A stretch of 64,000 bases of DNA from Kiritimatiellaceae bacterium. Its GTDB lineage: Bacteria > Verrucomicrobiota > Kiritimatiellia > Kiritimatiellales > Tichowtungiaceae. The notes below the pieces were generated by a model. It had not been told where the DNA came from and made no database searches. It worked only from the letters and a program-made list of their open reading frames with translations. Of this stretch, positions 13,503 to 21,510 are shown piece after piece; position 1 is the first letter of the stretch; the number at the start of each line of letters is the position of its first letter. The stretch lies in NCBI GenBank assembly GCA_013141415.1, contig JABFQY010000001.1, positions 434,001 through 498,000 on the forward strand, in the 5' to 3' direction. The position numbers and the translations under genes were made by a program.

Positions 13503-13532
13503 TTGATATACATTCACGAATGTATGTATAAG
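13503..13532 (+). promoter_or_regulatory. Likely sigma-70 promoter of the efflux operon
   Basis: TTGATA at 13503-13508 and TATAAG at 13527-13532 are separated by 18 bases, about 25 bases upstream of the tetR start. The dyad described separately covers the spacer and the -10 box, so repressor binding would block polymerase. Confidence 0.6.
13507..13530 (+). promoter_or_regulatory. AcrR-like operator dyad
   Basis: The core ATACATTC-AC-GAATGTAT is a perfect inverted repeat, extended by GTATA on one side. Read on the minus strand it contains TACATACATTCGTGAATGTA, which differs by one base from the equivalent part of the E. coli AcrR operator as I remember it. Placement over the promoter of a TetR-pump operon supports autoregulation by the adjacent repressor. 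Confidence 0.75.
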
Positions 13533-13557: not shown

Positions 13558-14184
13558 ATGGCCAGAAAAACCAAAGAGGATGCGCAGGCGACCAGAGAAA
13601 GCGTGCTGATTGCGGCGCTGGATCTGTTCAGCGAAAAAGGATATTCCCGCACGACCTTCGCCGACATCGCCAAAAAAATCGGCATGACGCGCGGTGCGGT
13701 TTACTGGCACTTCGATAACAAACCGGCACTGCTCGCCGCGATGGTGGATTATTTCTGCGGCCTCAGGGAAGACCGGGTGCGGCAGCATTTTTCTGAAATC
13801 CATTCGCTGGAAGAATTGCGGGAAGCTTTTCTGGAACACGCCCGGGCGGTGGTGGAGGATAAGCGGCTCAAGAAGTTTGAATTCTTCATGGCCTTCCAGA
13901 TGGAGTGGTCGGAGGAACTGCTGACGGAGACGCACAAGATTCTTGATCGAATCCGCAAGGATCCGTTTGAAAAGCTGATTGCGATTCTCCGTTCGTCGCC
14001 GATCTCAAACCGTTTCCGTAAAGATGTTGATCCTGAAAAACTGGCCGTTACGCTGGCGGGGCTTTGGGTCGGGCTGTGTAAGTTTTATCTGGGGTCCTGC
14101 CCGAAGATTGATTTGGTTTCCGCTGCGGCGGATGGATTTGATTGCATAATGAACGGTGTCTTGAAGAAAGAGGTGACGGCATGA
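13558..14184 (+). CDS. TetR/AcrR family repressor of the RND efflux operon
   Basis: A 208-residue regulator. The N-terminal helix-turn-helix spans about residues 12-58, with the family signature TFADIAKKIGMTRGAVYWHF followed by DNKPALLAAM. The C-terminal ligand-binding part resembles AcrR, TtgR and MexR-type pump repressors. It is the first gene of a tight operon: its stop overlaps the start of the membrane fusion protein by four bases. An AcrR-like operator lies 28 bases upstream. Inference: binding of a toxic hydrophobic ligand releases the repressor and induces the pump. Confidence 0.93.
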   Translation: MARKTKEDAQATRESVLIAALDLFSEKGYSRTTFADIAKKIGMTRGAVYWHFDNKPALLAAMVDYFCGLREDRVRQHFSEIHSLEELREAFLEHARAVVEDKRLKKFEFFMAFQMEWSEELLTETHKILDRIRKDPFEKLIAILRSSPISNRFRKDVDPEKLAVTLAGLWVGLCKFYLGSCPKIDLVSAAADGFDCIMNGVLKKEVTA

Positions 14185-15338
14185 TTAAAAAATTCGTTTC
14201 AACTGTAGTGATCATCGGCCTGTCTGCTTTTGCGGGCTGGTATGTTCACGGACTGTACGGCGGAAAACCGAAGACTGCCGGCATGCCGCCGATGGCGATG
14301 GCCCGTCCGCCGATGCCGCCTGCGGCCGTTACTGTTCAGGTATTGAAAGAGCAGTCGCTTCAGCCGGTCGAAGAATATATCGCTAAGGTTGAGCCGGTTC
14401 AGCAGGTGACGATTCGTCCGCAGATTTCCGGAACGATTGAGGCTGTTCATTTCAAAGAAGGCGATTTTGTCAAAGCGGGCGATCGGCTTTTCACCATTCA
14501 GCCGGACTCGTACTGGGCCGCTATCGCTGTCCGCGAAGCCGAGCTAGCTCAGGCGGAAGCGGCGCTGAGCCGCGCCGAGAAATACTACGACCGGATTAAG
14601 AGCGCCGACGCCCGCAGTATTTCGAAAACCTCTCTAGACACAGCGGAAAGCGATTGCCTTCAGGCAAAAGCCGCCGTCAAACAAACCGAAGCCAACCTGA
14701 ATCTGGCGCGCATTAATCTGGGCTACACAGAAATCACGGCTCCGATCAGCGGACGTATCGGCATCGCGGAGATAACCAAAGGAAATTATGTGACGCCTGC
14801 GTCCTCCGCGCTGGCCAGCATCGTACAGACTGATCCGGTGCGGGTGGTGTTTTCCGTGACCGACCGCGCTTACTTGAGTTTGCGCCAGCAAATACTGGCG
14901 GGAACCGCGTCGTCTTTGTCGGCGCACGTTCGTCTGCCGAACGGCACCGTTCTTCCAGTCGTTGGAAAAAAAGATTTCGACGACAACATGATGAGTGACC
15001 GCACCGGTACGATGGCGGTTCGCTTTGCCTTTGATAATGCCGACGGACTGCTGGTGGCTGGCGGATATGTGAAAGTTCTGCTCGAAAATCCAGACGCGCC
15101 GCAGGGAATCAAAATTCCGCAAAAGGCGGTTCTGGTCGATCAGCAGGGTTCGTATGTTCTGACAGTGGACGAAGCCGGGAAGGTTTCTGCGGCGCGTATT
15201 AAAACCGGTGCACAGCTTGGTGCGGACGTCATTGTGGAGTCCGGACTTAAAGCGGGGGATCACGTCGTGATCGACGGCGTGCAGAAAGCCGTTCCCGGAG
15301 CCACGGTGAAAGTGACGTTAGCGGAGGACGGAAAATGA
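14181..15338 (+). CDS. RND efflux membrane fusion protein (AcrA/MexA type)
   Basis: Periplasmic adaptor of 385 residues joining the inner-membrane pump to the outer-membrane channel. An N-terminal membrane anchor or signal (FVSTVVIIGLSAFAGWYVHG) has no cysteine at a lipobox, so it is probably not lipidated. A Met/Pro-rich linker follows. Biotinyl-lipoyl halves flank the alpha-hairpin (VRPQISGTIEAVHFKEGDFV-like segment near residue 90, and ARINLGYTEITAPISGRIGI near 185), and a beta-barrel comes next (SIVQTDPVRVVFSVTD). GAGGTGA precedes the ATG, which overlaps the tetR stop; the stop overlaps the pump start. Confidence 0.93.
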   Translation: MIKKFVSTVVIIGLSAFAGWYVHGLYGGKPKTAGMPPMAMARPPMPPAAVTVQVLKEQSLQPVEEYIAKVEPVQQVTIRPQISGTIEAVHFKEGDFVKAGDRLFTIQPDSYWAAIAVREAELAQAEAALSRAEKYYDRIKSADARSISKTSLDTAESDCLQAKAAVKQTEANLNLARINLGYTEITAPISGRIGIAEITKGNYVTPASSALASIVQTDPVRVVFSVTDRAYLSLRQQILAGTASSLSAHVRLPNGTVLPVVGKKDFDDNMMSDRTGTMAVRFAFDNADGLLVAGGYVKVLLENPDAPQGIKIPQKAVLVDQQGSYVLTVDEAGKVSAARIKTGAQLGADVIVESGLKAGDHVVIDGVQKAVPGATVKVTLAEDGK

Positions 15339-18300
15339 TATCCCGCGTATTTATTAACCGTCCGCGGCTGGCGGGCGTGATTTCCATCGTGCTGATGCTG
15401 GCCGGCATCATTTCGATTTTTTCACTGCCGGTCGCGCAGTATCCGCTGGTAACGCCGCCGCAGATCACCGTGTCGGCGAGTTATCCCGGCGCCAGCGCGG
15501 AAGTGCTGGCCGACACCGTGGCCGGTCCGCTTGAGGATGCGGTCAACGGCGTGGACGACATGATTTATATGTCATCCACGTCCGACAGTTCCGGCAACTA
15601 CGCTCTGACCGTTTCTTTTGCCGTCGGCACCGACATCGATATTTCGCTGGTTAAAGTACAGAACCGGGTTGCGCAGGCCACACCGCTGCTGCCTGCCGAA
15701 GTTGTTCAGAAGGGCGTGTCGGTACAGAACCAGTCGTCGGACATTCTCGGATTCCTGATGGTGCGTTCGCCCGACCGTTCACGCGACAGTCTTTTTCTGA
15801 GCGACTACGCCTATAAAGTCATCAAGCCGGCGCTGGAGCGGATTTCCGGCGTCAGCAGCGCCAGCGTGCGCGGCTCGAAATACAGCATGCGCGTCTGGCT
15901 GGATTCCGACCGGCTGGCCGCGCTGGGTCTGAGTTCTTCGGATGTGATTGCCGCGATTCGCAGTCAGAACGTTCAGGCGTCGATCGGTGCCATCGGCAGT
16001 GTTCCCGGCGACGGCTCGGAGCAAATGACCTATACACTGAAAACCACCGGACGGTTGAATACCGTAGAGGATTTCAAAAAAATTATTGTCCGCACCGGCG
16101 CCGACGGCGCAGTTGTTTTTCTGGGCGACGTTGCCCGGATAGAAAAGGGTGCGGACAATTATCTGTTCTCCGCACGCTACAACGGCGAGCCGTCGGTGGC
16201 GATGATGGTGAGCCGCACCTCGGACGCCAACGCGCTGACGACGATGAACAACCTGCGCAAGGAACTGGCCTCTCTTCAAAAACAATTTCCGTCCGGCGTC
16301 GAATGCCAGTTCCCGTACGACGCCACCCAGTTTGTGCGCGTCTGTATTGAAGAAATCGCTTTAACGCTGCTGCTGACTTTCCTGCTCGTGGTTGGCGTCT
16401 GCTACATTTTCCTTCAAGACTGGCGGGCAACGCTGATTCCGGCGCTGACGATTCCGGTTTCGCTGTGCGCCACTTTCGCGGTGCTGACGGCCTTCGGCTA
16501 CAGCATTAACACGCTGACGCTGTTCGGTCTGGTGCTGGCCATCGGCGTCGTCGTGGATGATGCCATCGTGGTGGTGGAGCGCGTTCTTCACCTGATGGAG
16601 CACGAGCATCTGGATCAGAGAACCGCAACCATTAAAGCGATGGAACAGGTGAGCGGCCCGATTATTGCAACCACGCTGGTCCTGCTGGCGATCTTTGTGC
16701 CGATCGGGTTCATGGGCGGAATCGTCGGGAAAATTTATCAGCAGTTCGCCGTTTCGATTTCGGCGGCCGTTTTGTTTTCGGCCATCAACGCACTGACGCT
16801 CAGTCCGGCGTTATGTGCCAGCATGCTTCAGGTTATCAAGCCAAAGCGGCACGGCCCGCTGCGCTGGTTTAACGCCGGGCTTGGGCAGGTGCGAAGCGGC
16901 TATGTATCGGCGTCCAGTCTTCTGTCGCGGCATTTGATTCTGACCGTTGTGGTTCTGGCGGCCGTTATCGGCGGTGCGTATATGATCGGAAAATTCAGTC
17001 CGACTTCGTTCCTGCCGGACGAAGATCAGGGCATCATCTTTGGTGCTGTCCAGCTTCCGGAAGGCGCGACGCTTGCCCGTACCGACGCGCTGCTTACGCA
17101 GGCGGTCACGCCGCTGCGCAACGAGCCCGGCGTTGCTTTTGTCATTCAGATCACCGGGTTCAGCCTGATGGGCGGCGCCGGCGAAAACGTGGCCTTCTTC
17201 GTTTGCGGTCTGAAGGACTGGAGCGAACGCAAGACGCCGGAGTTACAGTCTTCCGCGATTTTAAAGAGACTGCAGGGCCGACTGGCGCAGGTTTCCGGTG
17301 CGCAGATTAATCTCTTTACCCCGCCAGCCATTCGCGGGCTTGGCGCCAGCAGCGGGATGGATATCCGCCTGCAGGCGGTCAGCGACAATGATCCGCAAAA
17401 ACTCGACGCGGTGCTGAAAGGTTTTCTCATGAAGCTCAACACAACGCCGGGAATCATGTACGCGTTCAGCACCTACACCGCGAACACGCCGTATCTGTTT
17501 CTGGATGTGGATCGTGTCAAAGCGTCGCTGATGGGCGTAGATACCAGCGCCATTTTTGCGGCGCTTCAGGACAACCTCGGTTCGCGCTATGTCAACAACG
17601 TGAACTTTGATGGACAGGTGAATAACGTCAACGTACAGGCCGACTGGCCGTTCCGCAATCAGGTGGCCGACATTGAAAAGATTTACGTCAAAAACAACCG
17701 CGGCGACATGGTTCCGCTCGGCAGTGTGCTAACGTCCCGCGTCATTCTTTCTCCGCGAACGGTGGATCGTTACAACAAATTCACCTCCGCGGCCGTCACG
17801 GCCATCGCGCTGCCGTTTATCAGTAGCGGCGAAGCCATGAAGACCGTTTCCAAGCTGGCTGGCGAAACGCTGCCTGCCGGTTACACCTTCGACTGGTCCA
17901 GTCTGAGCTATCAGGAAGCCAGAGCGGCTGGCGGAAGTTCTCTGCTCATCGTCATGGCGCTGATCTTCGGCTATCTGTTTCTCGTCGCGCAGTATGAAAG
18001 CTGGATCATTCCTCTGCCGGTAATGCTTTCCACGGTGGTCGCGAGTCTGGGCGCGCTGGCCGGTCTGCTGTTCAGCCACATGCCGCTCAGTATCTACGCG
18101 CAGCTCGGATTGATTCTGCTCGTCGGACTCGCCAGCAAAAACGCCATTCTGATTGTCGAGTTTTCGCGAGCCCGCCGCGAAGAAGGTCTTACTATTCTTG
18201 AGGCGGCGGCTGACGGCATGAAGCAACGGTTCCGCGCCGTGCTGATGACCGCGTTTACTTTTATTCTCGGCGTACTGCCGATGATGCTGGCCACCGGCGC

Positions 18301-19840
18301 CGGTTCCGCCGCGCGCAAGTCGATCGGTACGACGGTCTTCTGGGGTATGACCATCGCGACGGTCTTTGGCATGTTTCTGATTCCCGCGCTCTACGTGCTT
18401 TTTCAAACCTTGCGTGAAAAGAGTCATACGATCCGTTCCGGCAGAAATAAACTGCACCTGCTGGTGATTCTGCTTATCCCGTTCCTGTTCGGCGGATGCA
18501 AAACCGTTGGGCCGGACTATAAAGAACCGGAACTTCCGCAGCTCGGCGGCCAGCTGTTCGAAGTTCCTTCGGCGTGGTGGATGACGCTGAACGATCCGGA
18601 ATTGACAGCGCTCATTGACGAATCTCAGCGGAATAATAATGGCATCAAGTCGGCGGTTGCCGCCGTCCGTGCGGCTCGCGCTCAACTTGGAATTGCACAG
18701 GCTGTGTTCGGTCCGCAACTGAACGCAACCGGCAGTTACGCCCGGCGAAAGGCCGGTGAAGACGTATCCAGTGCTGGTGCCGGAGATCTTTACCGCGCCG
18801 GTTTTGACGCATCCTGGGAATACGACCTGTTCGGCGGAAACCGCCGTTCGGTCGAAGCCGCTGTCGCCGGACTTGAAGCGCAGGAAGCCGGTCAGGCCGA
18901 TGTACAGGTTTCGCTGTCTGCCGAAACCGCGCAAAGTTATGTTCTGTTGCGCACTTACCAGCAGCGTCTGCAGGTCGCCCGCGAAAATCTTGAACTTCAG
19001 CAACAGACTTTTGATCTGCTGAAATCCCGCTTCGACAGCGGACTGGTTGACGAACTCTCGGTTCAGCAGTCCCGTTACACACTGGAAAGTACACGTTCCG
19101 TCATTCCGTCGCTGGAAACCGGCGTTGAAAAAAGTCTCAACGCACTGGCGGTTCTCACCGGCGTTCTGCCCGGCTCGCTGCACGAACGGCTGAGCGCGGT
19201 GCAAAACATTCCGGTTGCCTCGGCGCAAACCGTCACCGGTATTCCGGCGGATGTGTTGCGACGCCGCCCCGACGTGCGCCGGGCGGAACGTAAGCTGGCC
19301 GCCGAAACGGCGCGCATCGGTGTCGCCGAATCCGACCTTTACCCGAAGTTCACGCTGAACGGCTCGATCGGTATTGAAGCGTTGCACGCCTCGTCGCTGG
19401 TGAAGTCCGGCAGTGAATTTTACAGCATCGGCCCCGGCGTCCGCTGGGCGATTTTCAATATGGGTTCTGTGCGCAACCGCATCGAAGTGCAGAAAGCTTC
19501 GCAGGAGCAGGCCCTCGCCGCCTACGAACAAACCGTACTGGGTGCCGTTCAGGAAACCCGCGACGCGCTCAGTGCGTTTGAAAACGAGCAGTTACGCATC
19601 CAATCACTGGACGCCGCTGTTTCCGCCGCGCGGACGGCAGCGGAACTGGCCGACGACCGCTATAAAAACGGACTCGTTGATTTTGATGTGGTTCTCAACG
19701 GGCAGCGTGCGCGGCTCATTCTTGAAGATCAGCTGGTACAAAGCCGCAGTGCCATCACGCTGAACCTCATCCAGCTCTACAAAGCGCTCGGCGGCGGCTG
19801 GACTTCGCTGGATCGCTCGGATTTGCACGGACGCGAATAG
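15335..19840 (+). CDS. RND pump fused to NodT/OprM-type outer-membrane factor
   Basis: One open frame of 1501 residues. Residues 1 to about 1035 are a full-length HAE1 transporter (AcrB/MexB type), with the proton-relay pair Asp408-Asp409 in GVVVDDAIVVVERV and Lys935 in GLASKNAILIVEF. After a short basic linker, LLVILLIPFLFGGC (Cys1055) and then KTVGPDYKEPELP begin a complete outer-membrane factor of the NodT/OprM lipoprotein family, with its two repeated helical-hairpin halves. Normally these are two genes. The internal hydrophobic segment with a lipobox-like end could be cleaved by signal peptidase II, freeing a lipidated channel. No ATG or ribosome-binding site marks a separate start. A lost stop or an assembly frameshift is the alternative: TAA occurs in another frame in the linker. 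Confidence 0.93.
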   Translation: MISRVFINRPRLAGVISIVLMLAGIISIFSLPVAQYPLVTPPQITVSASYPGASAEVLADTVAGPLEDAVNGVDDMIYMSSTSDSSGNYALTVSFAVGTDIDISLVKVQNRVAQATPLLPAEVVQKGVSVQNQSSDILGFLMVRSPDRSRDSLFLSDYAYKVIKPALERISGVSSASVRGSKYSMRVWLDSDRLAALGLSSSDVIAAIRSQNVQASIGAIGSVPGDGSEQMTYTLKTTGRLNTVEDFKKIIVRTGADGAVVFLGDVARIEKGADNYLFSARYNGEPSVAMMVSRTSDANALTTMNNLRKELASLQKQFPSGVECQFPYDATQFVRVCIEEIALTLLLTFLLVVGVCYIFLQDWRATLIPALTIPVSLCATFAVLTAFGYSINTLTLFGLVLAIGVVVDDAIVVVERVLHLMEHEHLDQRTATIKAMEQVSGPIIATTLVLLAIFVPIGFMGGIVGKIYQQFAVSISAAVLFSAINALTLSPALCASMLQVIKPKRHGPLRWFNAGLGQVRSGYVSASSLLSRHLILTVVVLAAVIGGAYMIGKFSPTSFLPDEDQGIIFGAVQLPEGATLARTDALLTQAVTPLRNEPGVAFVIQITGFSLMGGAGENVAFFVCGLKDWSERKTPELQSSAILKRLQGRLAQVSGAQINLFTPPAIRGLGASSGMDIRLQAVSDNDPQKLDAVLKGFLMKLNTTPGIMYAFSTYTANTPYLFLDVDRVKASLMGVDTSAIFAALQDNLGSRYVNNVNFDGQVNNVNVQADWPFRNQVADIEKIYVKNNRGDMVPLGSVLTSRVILSPRTVDRYNKFTSAAVTAIALPFISSGEAMKTVSKLAGETLPAGYTFDWSSLSYQEARAAGGSSLLIVMALIFGYLFLVAQYESWIIPLPVMLSTVVASLGALAGLLFSHMPLSIYAQLGLILLVGLASKNAILIVEFSRARREEGLTILEAAADGMKQRFRAVLMTAFTFILGVLPMMLATGAGSAARKSIGTTVFWGMTIATVFGMFLIPALYVLFQTLREKSHTIRSGRNKLHLLVILLIPFLFGGCKTVGPDYKEPELPQLGGQLFEVPSAWWMTLNDPELTALIDESQRNNNGIKSAVAAVRAARAQLGIAQAVFGPQLNATGSYARRKAGEDVSSAGAGDLYRAGFDASWEYDLFGGNRRSVEAAVAGLEAQEAGQADVQVSLSAETAQSYVLLRTYQQRLQVARENLELQQQTFDLLKSRFDSGLVDELSVQQSRYTLESTRSVIPSLETGVEKSLNALAVLTGVLPGSLHERLSAVQNIPVASAQTVTGIPADVLRRRPDVRRAERKLAAETARIGVAESDLYPKFTLNGSIGIEALHASSLVKSGSEFYSIGPGVRWAIFNMGSVRNRIEVQKASQEQALAAYEQTVLGAVQETRDALSAFENEQLRIQSLDAAVSAARTAAELADDRYKNGLVDFDVVLNGQRARLILEDQLVQSRSAITLNLIQLYKALGGGWTSLDRSDLHGRE

Positions 19841-19887: not shown

Positions 19888-21510
19888 ATGCTTCGTGCGT
19901 CGTCATATACCGCCTTGGATTTGCATAACAGGATTCAGCAGGCCGTTAAGAGCGGCTGTTCTAAAGTCAGTCTCGATCCGGGATGCTATGAAGTATCCGG
20001 AGAACTGCTGCCTGACAGCTTTTGCTGCCCATCCAACAACGACGAAGGCGTTAAGCGCATCCTCTTTGATCTCGTTGGCGTGAATAATCTGACGATCGAC
20101 GGACAAGGTGCAACGCTGGTGTTTCACGGCGAAATGCTGCCTGTACGCATGGTTGAATGCCGCAACGTCAAGCTGCTCAACTTTTCTATCGACTGGAAGC
20201 GCCCTTTCTTTACGCAAGGGCTGGTGCTGAAATCGGGGGCTGATTTTGTTGAGGTGGAGGTCGATACAGAAAAATATCCGCTGACGGTGGAGGGTAACCG
20301 GCTCGTGCTGTGTGATGAGGCTGGATACCGTAACACTTCCCTATGGAATATCCTGGGCTTCGATCCGCAAAAACCGGAACTCGCATTTGATCAGGGCGAC
20401 AATTTTTCGCTGGCCAGCCACCACGTTGCCACGCAAACGGCGCCGAATCGTTTCCGTATAGACGGGAAATGGATCACCGTCCCGAAACCGGGCCAGCGGG
20501 CTTTGCTCATGCAGGGCGACCGGATTGCCCCGGCTGTTTTTATGGATCGCTGTCAGGATACATTGATCGAAAACGTAACGATTCACCATGCGCCGGGTAT
20601 GGGATTTCTCGGCCAGATGTGTCGCAACACGGCTCTGAGCCGCTGCAAGGTGGTTCCTTCCGGCGACCGCATTTTTTCAACCTGGGTTGACGCTTCACAT
20701 TTTACCGATTGCGACGGACGGCTCGATATCTGCGGATGCGAATTCAGCGGGCAATGCGATGATGCCGGCAACATACACGGAGCCTACTGGGCGGTTGCCG
20801 AACGGATTGACGACCGCACAATTCTGGCGGAAGTCCGCCATACGCAACAGCGCGGCGTGGCCATGCTCAAGTCCGGCGACATCGCGGCATTCCACAACCG
20901 CGCCAACCTCGCCGGCCTGATACATAGAAACGTAGTTGAGGTTTCTCCCATCAACCTGGTCATCACAAAAATCGTGTTCGACGGGCCGGTACCGGACTGC
21001 CCCGAAATGGCGATCCGGCGCCATTGCCCGGATTTTGAAGTCAACGTGACGGATTGTAAGTTCGGCCCCAACCGCGGACGCGGATTATTACTTTCCGTTC
21101 CCGGAAAAGTTCGCGTTGAGCGCAACATCATCCATTCCTCCTGTTCGGGGGTTTTGGTCGAAAGTGACTGCAACTACTGGTGGGAATCCGGCCCGCTCAC
21201 CGATCTGCTGGTGAGCAACAATATTTTTGAGAGTTGCTGCTATGGTCAATCAGGCTCCGCTGTTATCCATGTATCGCCTAAAGTGCAGAACCCTGAAGGG
21301 GCCCCGCCGGTTCACCGTAATCTGCGTTTTTCGGATAACCGCTTTATTCTCTGCCGCGCTCCGCTGTTGCACGCCGATTTTGTTGATGGTCTCGTATTTG
21401 AACGGAACACGGTCGAATGGTCGGCGAACTATCCGTGTGAATGCGCAACTCCAACTATAAAACTTGGAGCATGTCTGCCTGGCGCCAGAATTCAACCCCT
21501 GAACGAATAA
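19888..21510 (+). CDS. GH110-like right-handed beta-helix protein (alpha-1,3-galactosidase family)
   Basis: Protein of 540 residues. LTIDGQGATLVFHG, RPFFTQGLVL, DRIFSTWVDASHF and CDDAGNIHGAYW match, from memory, the ordered motifs of GH110 alpha-1,3-galactosidases. The paired Asp291-Asp292 in the DDAxNxHG stretch is where the family places catalytic acids. The later part has regular beta-helix rungs (VTDCKFGPNRGRGLLLSVPG; LLVSNNIFESC). No signal peptide is present, so the protein is probably cytoplasmic, unlike most polysaccharide-degrading relatives. It is also rich in cysteine. AGGAGT lies just before the ATG. It is probably not part of the efflux operon. Confidence 0.7.
   Translation: MLRASSYTALDLHNRIQQAVKSGCSKVSLDPGCYEVSGELLPDSFCCPSNNDEGVKRILFDLVGVNNLTIDGQGATLVFHGEMLPVRMVECRNVKLLNFSIDWKRPFFTQGLVLKSGADFVEVEVDTEKYPLTVEGNRLVLCDEAGYRNTSLWNILGFDPQKPELAFDQGDNFSLASHHVATQTAPNRFRIDGKWITVPKPGQRALLMQGDRIAPAVFMDRCQDTLIENVTIHHAPGMGFLGQMCRNTALSRCKVVPSGDRIFSTWVDASHFTDCDGRLDICGCEFSGQCDDAGNIHGAYWAVAERIDDRTILAEVRHTQQRGVAMLKSGDIAAFHNRANLAGLIHRNVVEVSPINLVITKIVFDGPVPDCPEMAIRRHCPDFEVNVTDCKFGPNRGRGLLLSVPGKVRVERNIIHSSCSGVLVESDCNYWWESGPLTDLLVSNNIFESCCYGQSGSAVIHVSPKVQNPEGAPPVHRNLRFSDNRFILCRAPLLHADFVDGLVFERNTVEWSANYPCECATPTIKLGACLPGARIQPLNE

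Follow-up and report, generated by a model that had tools for sequence, protein, structure and literature searches.

A drug-type RND pump joined in one frame to a NodT-type channel through a predicted internal lipoprotein signal

How might a single gene supply both the pump of one membrane and the channel of another? The window, that is, the whole 64,000-nucleotide stretch analysed here (G000:C1:434001-498000, from a 2.2-Mb genome that is 95.5% complete), contains a frame of 1501 amino acids that runs without interruption through an RND pump and an outer-membrane channel (Table 1). A sequence-only reading had described this frame as a complete HAE1 pump followed by a complete NodT/OprM lipoprotein channel, and had asked whether it encodes a polyprotein that is cut by signal peptidase II to give a 1:1 supply of two parts destined for different membranes.

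The open frame and the profile matches confirm that a complete pump and a complete channel are encoded together. Pfam ACR_tran spans aa 2–1024 (profile positions 1–1021 of 1021, 1025 bits), and NCBIfam 2A0602 (RND permease) scores 1068 bits on the same half, above its cut-off (940). Proton-relay motifs were found at 407 (VDDAI), 934 (SKNAI) and 965 (RFRAVLMTAF), near the places expected from AcrB D407, D408, K940 and R971 in a comparison made by motif and not by superposition. The closest solved structures are AcrB/MexB-type pumps. By profile and motif, the pump half is thus predicted to be an AcrB-type HAE1 RND permease with its proton relay.

For the channel half, Pfam OEP gave two matches in the 1501-aa protein and NCBIfam outer_NodT matched aa 1077–1488 with 348 bits (cut-off 210). 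An AlphaFold2 model of aa 1027–1501 (70 aligned sequences, mean pLDDT 89.9) contains a complete channel fold with four strands plus long helices. Family match and modelled fold together identify this half as an outer membrane factor of the NodT/OprM-OprN group. Within that group the earlier assignment to NodT stands, but OprM gives way to OprN, which is closer both by phmmer (1.4e-73) and by Foldseek (best match OprN 5azp, TM 0.84/0.89). The channel half has neither a separate gene nor an N-terminal signal peptide of its own; its signal is internal to the single open reading frame.

Table 1. Features of the fusion locus and of a second fusion type (positions in the window unless a locus is named; a dot marks a feature given no strand)
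Feature	Position	Strand	Remarks
Palindrome ATACATTCACGAATGTAT (ATACATT-CACG-AATGTAT)	13508..13525	.	Upstream of repressor; likely its operator
TetR-family repressor, AcrR/MtrR-like	13558..14184	+	Profile match; 4-base overlap with adaptor ATG
Periplasmic adaptor (RND_mfp, MexE-like)	14181..15338	+	Likely start ATG 14181; end overlaps pump ATG by 4 bases
Fusion gene	15335..19840	+	1501 aa; HAE1 RND pump, internal signal and NodT/OprN-type channel; 31 further genomes fused
Pump half, aa 1-1024	15335..18406	+	Pfam/NCBIfam profiles, proton-relay motifs
Basic cytoplasmic linker, aa 1025-1039 (TLREKSHTIRSGRNK)	18407..18451	+	Varies strongly among relatives
13th hydrophobic segment, aa 1040-1054 (LHLLVILLIPFLFGG)	18452..18496	+	Read as internal lipoprotein signal; predicted helix (AlphaFold2)
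Cys1055, predicted lipidated +1 residue of mature channel	18497..18499	+	Invariant in 32/32 fusions; PS51257 match
Channel half, aa 1055-1501	18497..19837	+	Complete outer-membrane-factor fold; AlphaFold2, Foldseek, phmmer
RND_permease_2 + TolC fusion	L142:2469-6944 (G018:C117)		

The fusion gene is the last of three genes, repressor, adaptor and fusion, joined by 4-base ATGA overlaps. The palindrome before the repressor, whose core pattern is expected 0.01 times by chance in the window and which has a near copy before the repressor of the nearest relative (L032, about 1383), is likely the operator of the TetR/AcrR-like repressor; we presume a resemblance to the E. coli AcrR operator, as a lead only. 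The product of the gene after the fusion (window 19888–21510) is a beta-helix protein that has GLAA-B-type beta-barrel domains. In its parts the locus resembles AcrAB-TolC, MexAB-OprM and MexEF-OprN: the same three components, an HAE1 pump, a channel of the NodT/OprN family, an AcrR-like regulator and an adaptor gene immediately upstream. In those systems, however, pump and channel are separate proteins, whereas here both belong to a single gene product, with a predicted lipoprotein signal between them. Heavy-metal RND proteins (CusA/CzcA) with a C-terminal TolC-type domain are known and, as here, place the outer-membrane-factor domain behind the pump in one frame. The present fusion differs from these in its drug-type HAE1 pump, its predicted lipid-anchored NodT-type channel and its invariant lipobox.

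What lies at the junction? TM12 of the pump ends near aa 1023, and the 13th hydrophobic segment ends LFGG|C1055. A basic n-region, a hydrophobic core and a lipobox cysteine, all three elements of a lipoprotein precursor, are present, but the signal sits at aa 1040–1055 and not at the protein N-terminus. The lipobox-like segment noticed at Cys1055 is borne out, since PS51257 fits this cysteine only among the seven of the fusion protein. After Cys1055 the sequence reads KTVGPDY. In an alignment with the OprN chain (TVGPDY) its T falls on residue 2; the predicted mature channel end thus agrees with that of mature OprN within about a residue.

The same site is preserved among relatives. We aligned 32 HAE1-NodT fusions and computed the mean majority identity per region: it is 39% in the linker (1030–1042) and 55% in the hydrophobic core, compared with 73% in the pump and 66% in the channel. 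Gly1054 and Cys1055 are nevertheless invariant (32/32) in fusions from several origins, and the basic n-region and hydrophobic core are kept in all. Two pump cysteines are also strongly kept (C494 in 26/26, C356 in 23/24); the other four are not. PS51257 was passed by 27 of the 30 listed junctions, and the remaining three (L006, L126 and L140) have Asn at −2. No aligned fusion has Asp at +2 of the junction cysteine, the residue that in enteric bacteria keeps lipoproteins at the inner membrane, a rule established there that may not hold in this phylum. In relatives, most free NodT channels have a conventional lipobox at their N-terminus, in the corresponding position.

Could the fusion simply stay uncut, as one chain anchored in two membranes? 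Some fused transporters are functional as single chains. Such a protein would need the 13th segment as an anchor but no Gly-Cys, so that the invariance of these two residues beside a drifting linker would have no evident reason without cutting. Geometry also weighs against it. In the AlphaFold2 model, Cys1055 is separated from the first channel helix by about 23 residues, which span at most about 80 Å, while the equatorial domain would stand far above the inner membrane, judging from the architecture of AcrAB-TolC and MexAB-OprM, and the N-terminal stretch of the channel would have to reach up to the outer membrane. In CusC, about 25 Å separate the equatorial domain from the lipidated cysteine, which is located at the outer membrane's inner leaflet (PMC3017539). 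Because the cysteine of the fusion instead ends an inner-membrane segment, an uncut fusion appears implausible in a standard pump, and we regard it as unlikely.

If the junction is cut, LspA need not be the enzyme: a periplasmic protease or signal peptidase I could act there, as other proteases can cut internal signals. A second, independent fusion type, RND_permease_2 + TolC, provides a natural control. It was found in G018 (L142), G317 (L170) and G035 (L173), and its junctions have type-I-like sites (WAGNARA|QTN, SVDAA|ES and WAGTARA|QTN, respectively); no lipobox was found at any of the three. Type-I-like sites in the RND-TolC fusions and a lipobox in the HAE1-NodT fusions suggest that the junction signal follows the class of the channel. 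Three other channel genes were found in the window's own genome; none is fused, and their N-termini are type-I-like. Since the invariant residues of the HAE1-NodT junction are those of a lipobox, cutting by an enzyme other than LspA seems very unlikely.

The fusion is old. We searched relatives for it, as the sequence-only reading had proposed, and found it in 31 further genomes. Of the 32, 24 lie in the window's own clade: the fusion is present in 10 of the 14 genus genomes examined, in 7 genomes of the order's other family, and in seven more genomes of the class (families f33, f37, f43 and f44). The other fusions come from six genomes of family f26, from G232, and from another class of the phylum (L180 in G494). 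Some of the 32 lie at contig ends and cover the junction only, and most sequences are metagenome assemblies; G009 and G311 are single-contig genomes with the fusion. Outside the fused clades, the two genes are separate and usually adjacent or overlapping. In Hydrogenedentota, Synergistota, Alphaproteobacteria and other Kiritimatiellia we found either such a pair or a pump for which the stretch examined contains no channel gene. Separate genes in otherwise identical DNA would have spoken against a genuine fusion; most near relatives are fused, and separate pairs appear in more distant ones. A scan of viral contigs gave no match. Wherever the best matches in a plasmid search have annotations for both pump and channel, these are two distinct genes.

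Frame length by itself over-reads fusion: L122, L125, L127, L129-L133, L135, L136, L181 and L182 are two open reading frames in the same frame with one stop between them. All of these except L181 and L182 were noted as pump and channel pairs that may represent steps before or after fusion; a shared frame is expected in one in three. One error could join two genes of this kind (as in L122, L125, L127 and L129-L133), and an assembly or sequencing artefact might be suspected in the window as well. It is almost inconceivable given the fusion in 31 other genomes, the single-contig G009 and G311 among them, which also rule out a missing base or lost stop at the junction.

How many times did the fusion arise? 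In the pump tree, the window's clade (A; SH-aLRT 98–99), the f26 clade (B) and L123 (from G232) stand apart. AU tests reject the union of clades A and B (p 4e-59) and that of B and L123 (p 3e-53), which rules out a single origin for each of these pairs. The trees are quick LG+G4 trees, in which the position of long rows (L180, for example) is uncertain. On the sequences examined, HAE1-NodT fusions are placed at three or more independent origins in the class, with a further one (L180) in another class. Because the outgroups have separate genes, we favour repeated gains; the alternative would be a single ancient fusion that split many times. L123 has a long pump tail as in its unfused neighbours, followed by VMSVLIVACLYVGC, a pattern to be expected if pump and channel genes lying side by side were joined recently.

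Loss also seems to have occurred. Nested in clade A are six pumps that lack the channel half (L016, L017, L018, L020, L021 and L112, from G018, G023, G019, G014, G024 and G020, in that order); G020 has two copies, one of them fused and the other not. No channel gene was found in the few kilobases examined around the six. The simplest reading is that these pumps lost the channel half later, and its absence from part of clade A implies that a 1:1 supply is not indispensable.

Might the channel be translated from an internal start, the fused frame being incidental? We surveyed the fusions for in-frame ATG, GTG or TTG codons between TM12 and the signal core, together with the preceding bases. An in-frame ATG lies near the signal in L114, L115, L126 and L139, and L123 has a possible former start. 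The candidate codons do not recur in position, however, and in many members no such codon would leave the signal complete; only L121 (TTG at C-24) has a weak AGGA upstream, and L023 and L118 have no start in range at all. Free relatives, by comparison, usually have a plain ATG before the signal. With no recurring in-frame start with a Shine-Dalgarno site before the signal core among the fusions, the channel half would hardly be made except within the fusion, and independent translation is very improbable.

Processing would require the enzymes of lipoprotein maturation. LspA and Lgt are encoded once each in 12 of the 12 genomes tested, including the window's own. Pfam LolA (PF03548) matched in only one of the 12; the window's own genome and 10 of the 11 relatives tested gave no match despite their predicted outer-membrane lipoproteins, and LolA may have diverged in this class.

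The invariant Gly-Cys (32/32), the presence of LspA and Lgt, the lack of a recurring internal start and the OprN-aligned end of the channel thus offer comparative support for a polyprotein cut by signal peptidase II, a cut that we infer. We consider it highly probable that the fusion product is lipidated and cut at Cys1055 like a lipoprotein precursor, yielding pump and channel 1:1. The pump half would insert with 12 transmembrane helices, leaving its C-terminal end in the cytoplasm, and the basic linker and 13th hydrophobic segment would then serve as an internal type II signal that takes the channel half into the periplasm. Lgt would lipidate Cys1055 and LspA would cut just before it. The inner membrane would then retain a 12+1-helix pump, and a free OprN-type channel with a lipidated N-terminus would move on to the outer membrane. 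Assembled pumps contain RND protein, adaptor and channel in a ratio of 3:6:3, as established for AcrAB-TolC and MexAB-OprM; pump and channel made 1:1 would match this ratio, which may be the benefit of the arrangement.

A partial precedent is FbcH, the cytochrome b/c1 polyprotein of Bradyrhizobium japonicum, in which signal peptidase releases a second protein that lies behind an inner-membrane protein and an internal signal peptide. FbcH has a type I signal and both of its products stay at the inner membrane, whereas here the signal is of type II and the products would serve two membranes. The pump and channel families and the enzymes are known; the gene architecture with its repeated origin is unusual. 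We found no literature on such RND-channel fusions or internal lipoprotein signals in a search of open-licence papers, which is weak evidence of novelty.

If processing occurs as proposed, the substrate of signal peptidase II would be an internal signal that follows a 12-helix membrane protein, and the released product would serve the other membrane. This would broaden the definition of a lipoprotein precursor. Signal-peptide predictors that consider the N-terminus only would miss such channels. The arrangement would offer a natural way to fix pump:channel stoichiometry and perhaps to release the channel beside its pump. As it arose repeatedly, the idea can be tested on several natural replicates. 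More broadly, we think it fairly probable that inner-membrane pumps of this bacterial group have repeatedly captured outer-membrane channels as signal-peptidase-processed polyproteins, in each case with the signal peptidase that already served the free channel (II for NodT and I for TolC). A single translation event would then supply matched subunits to both membranes.
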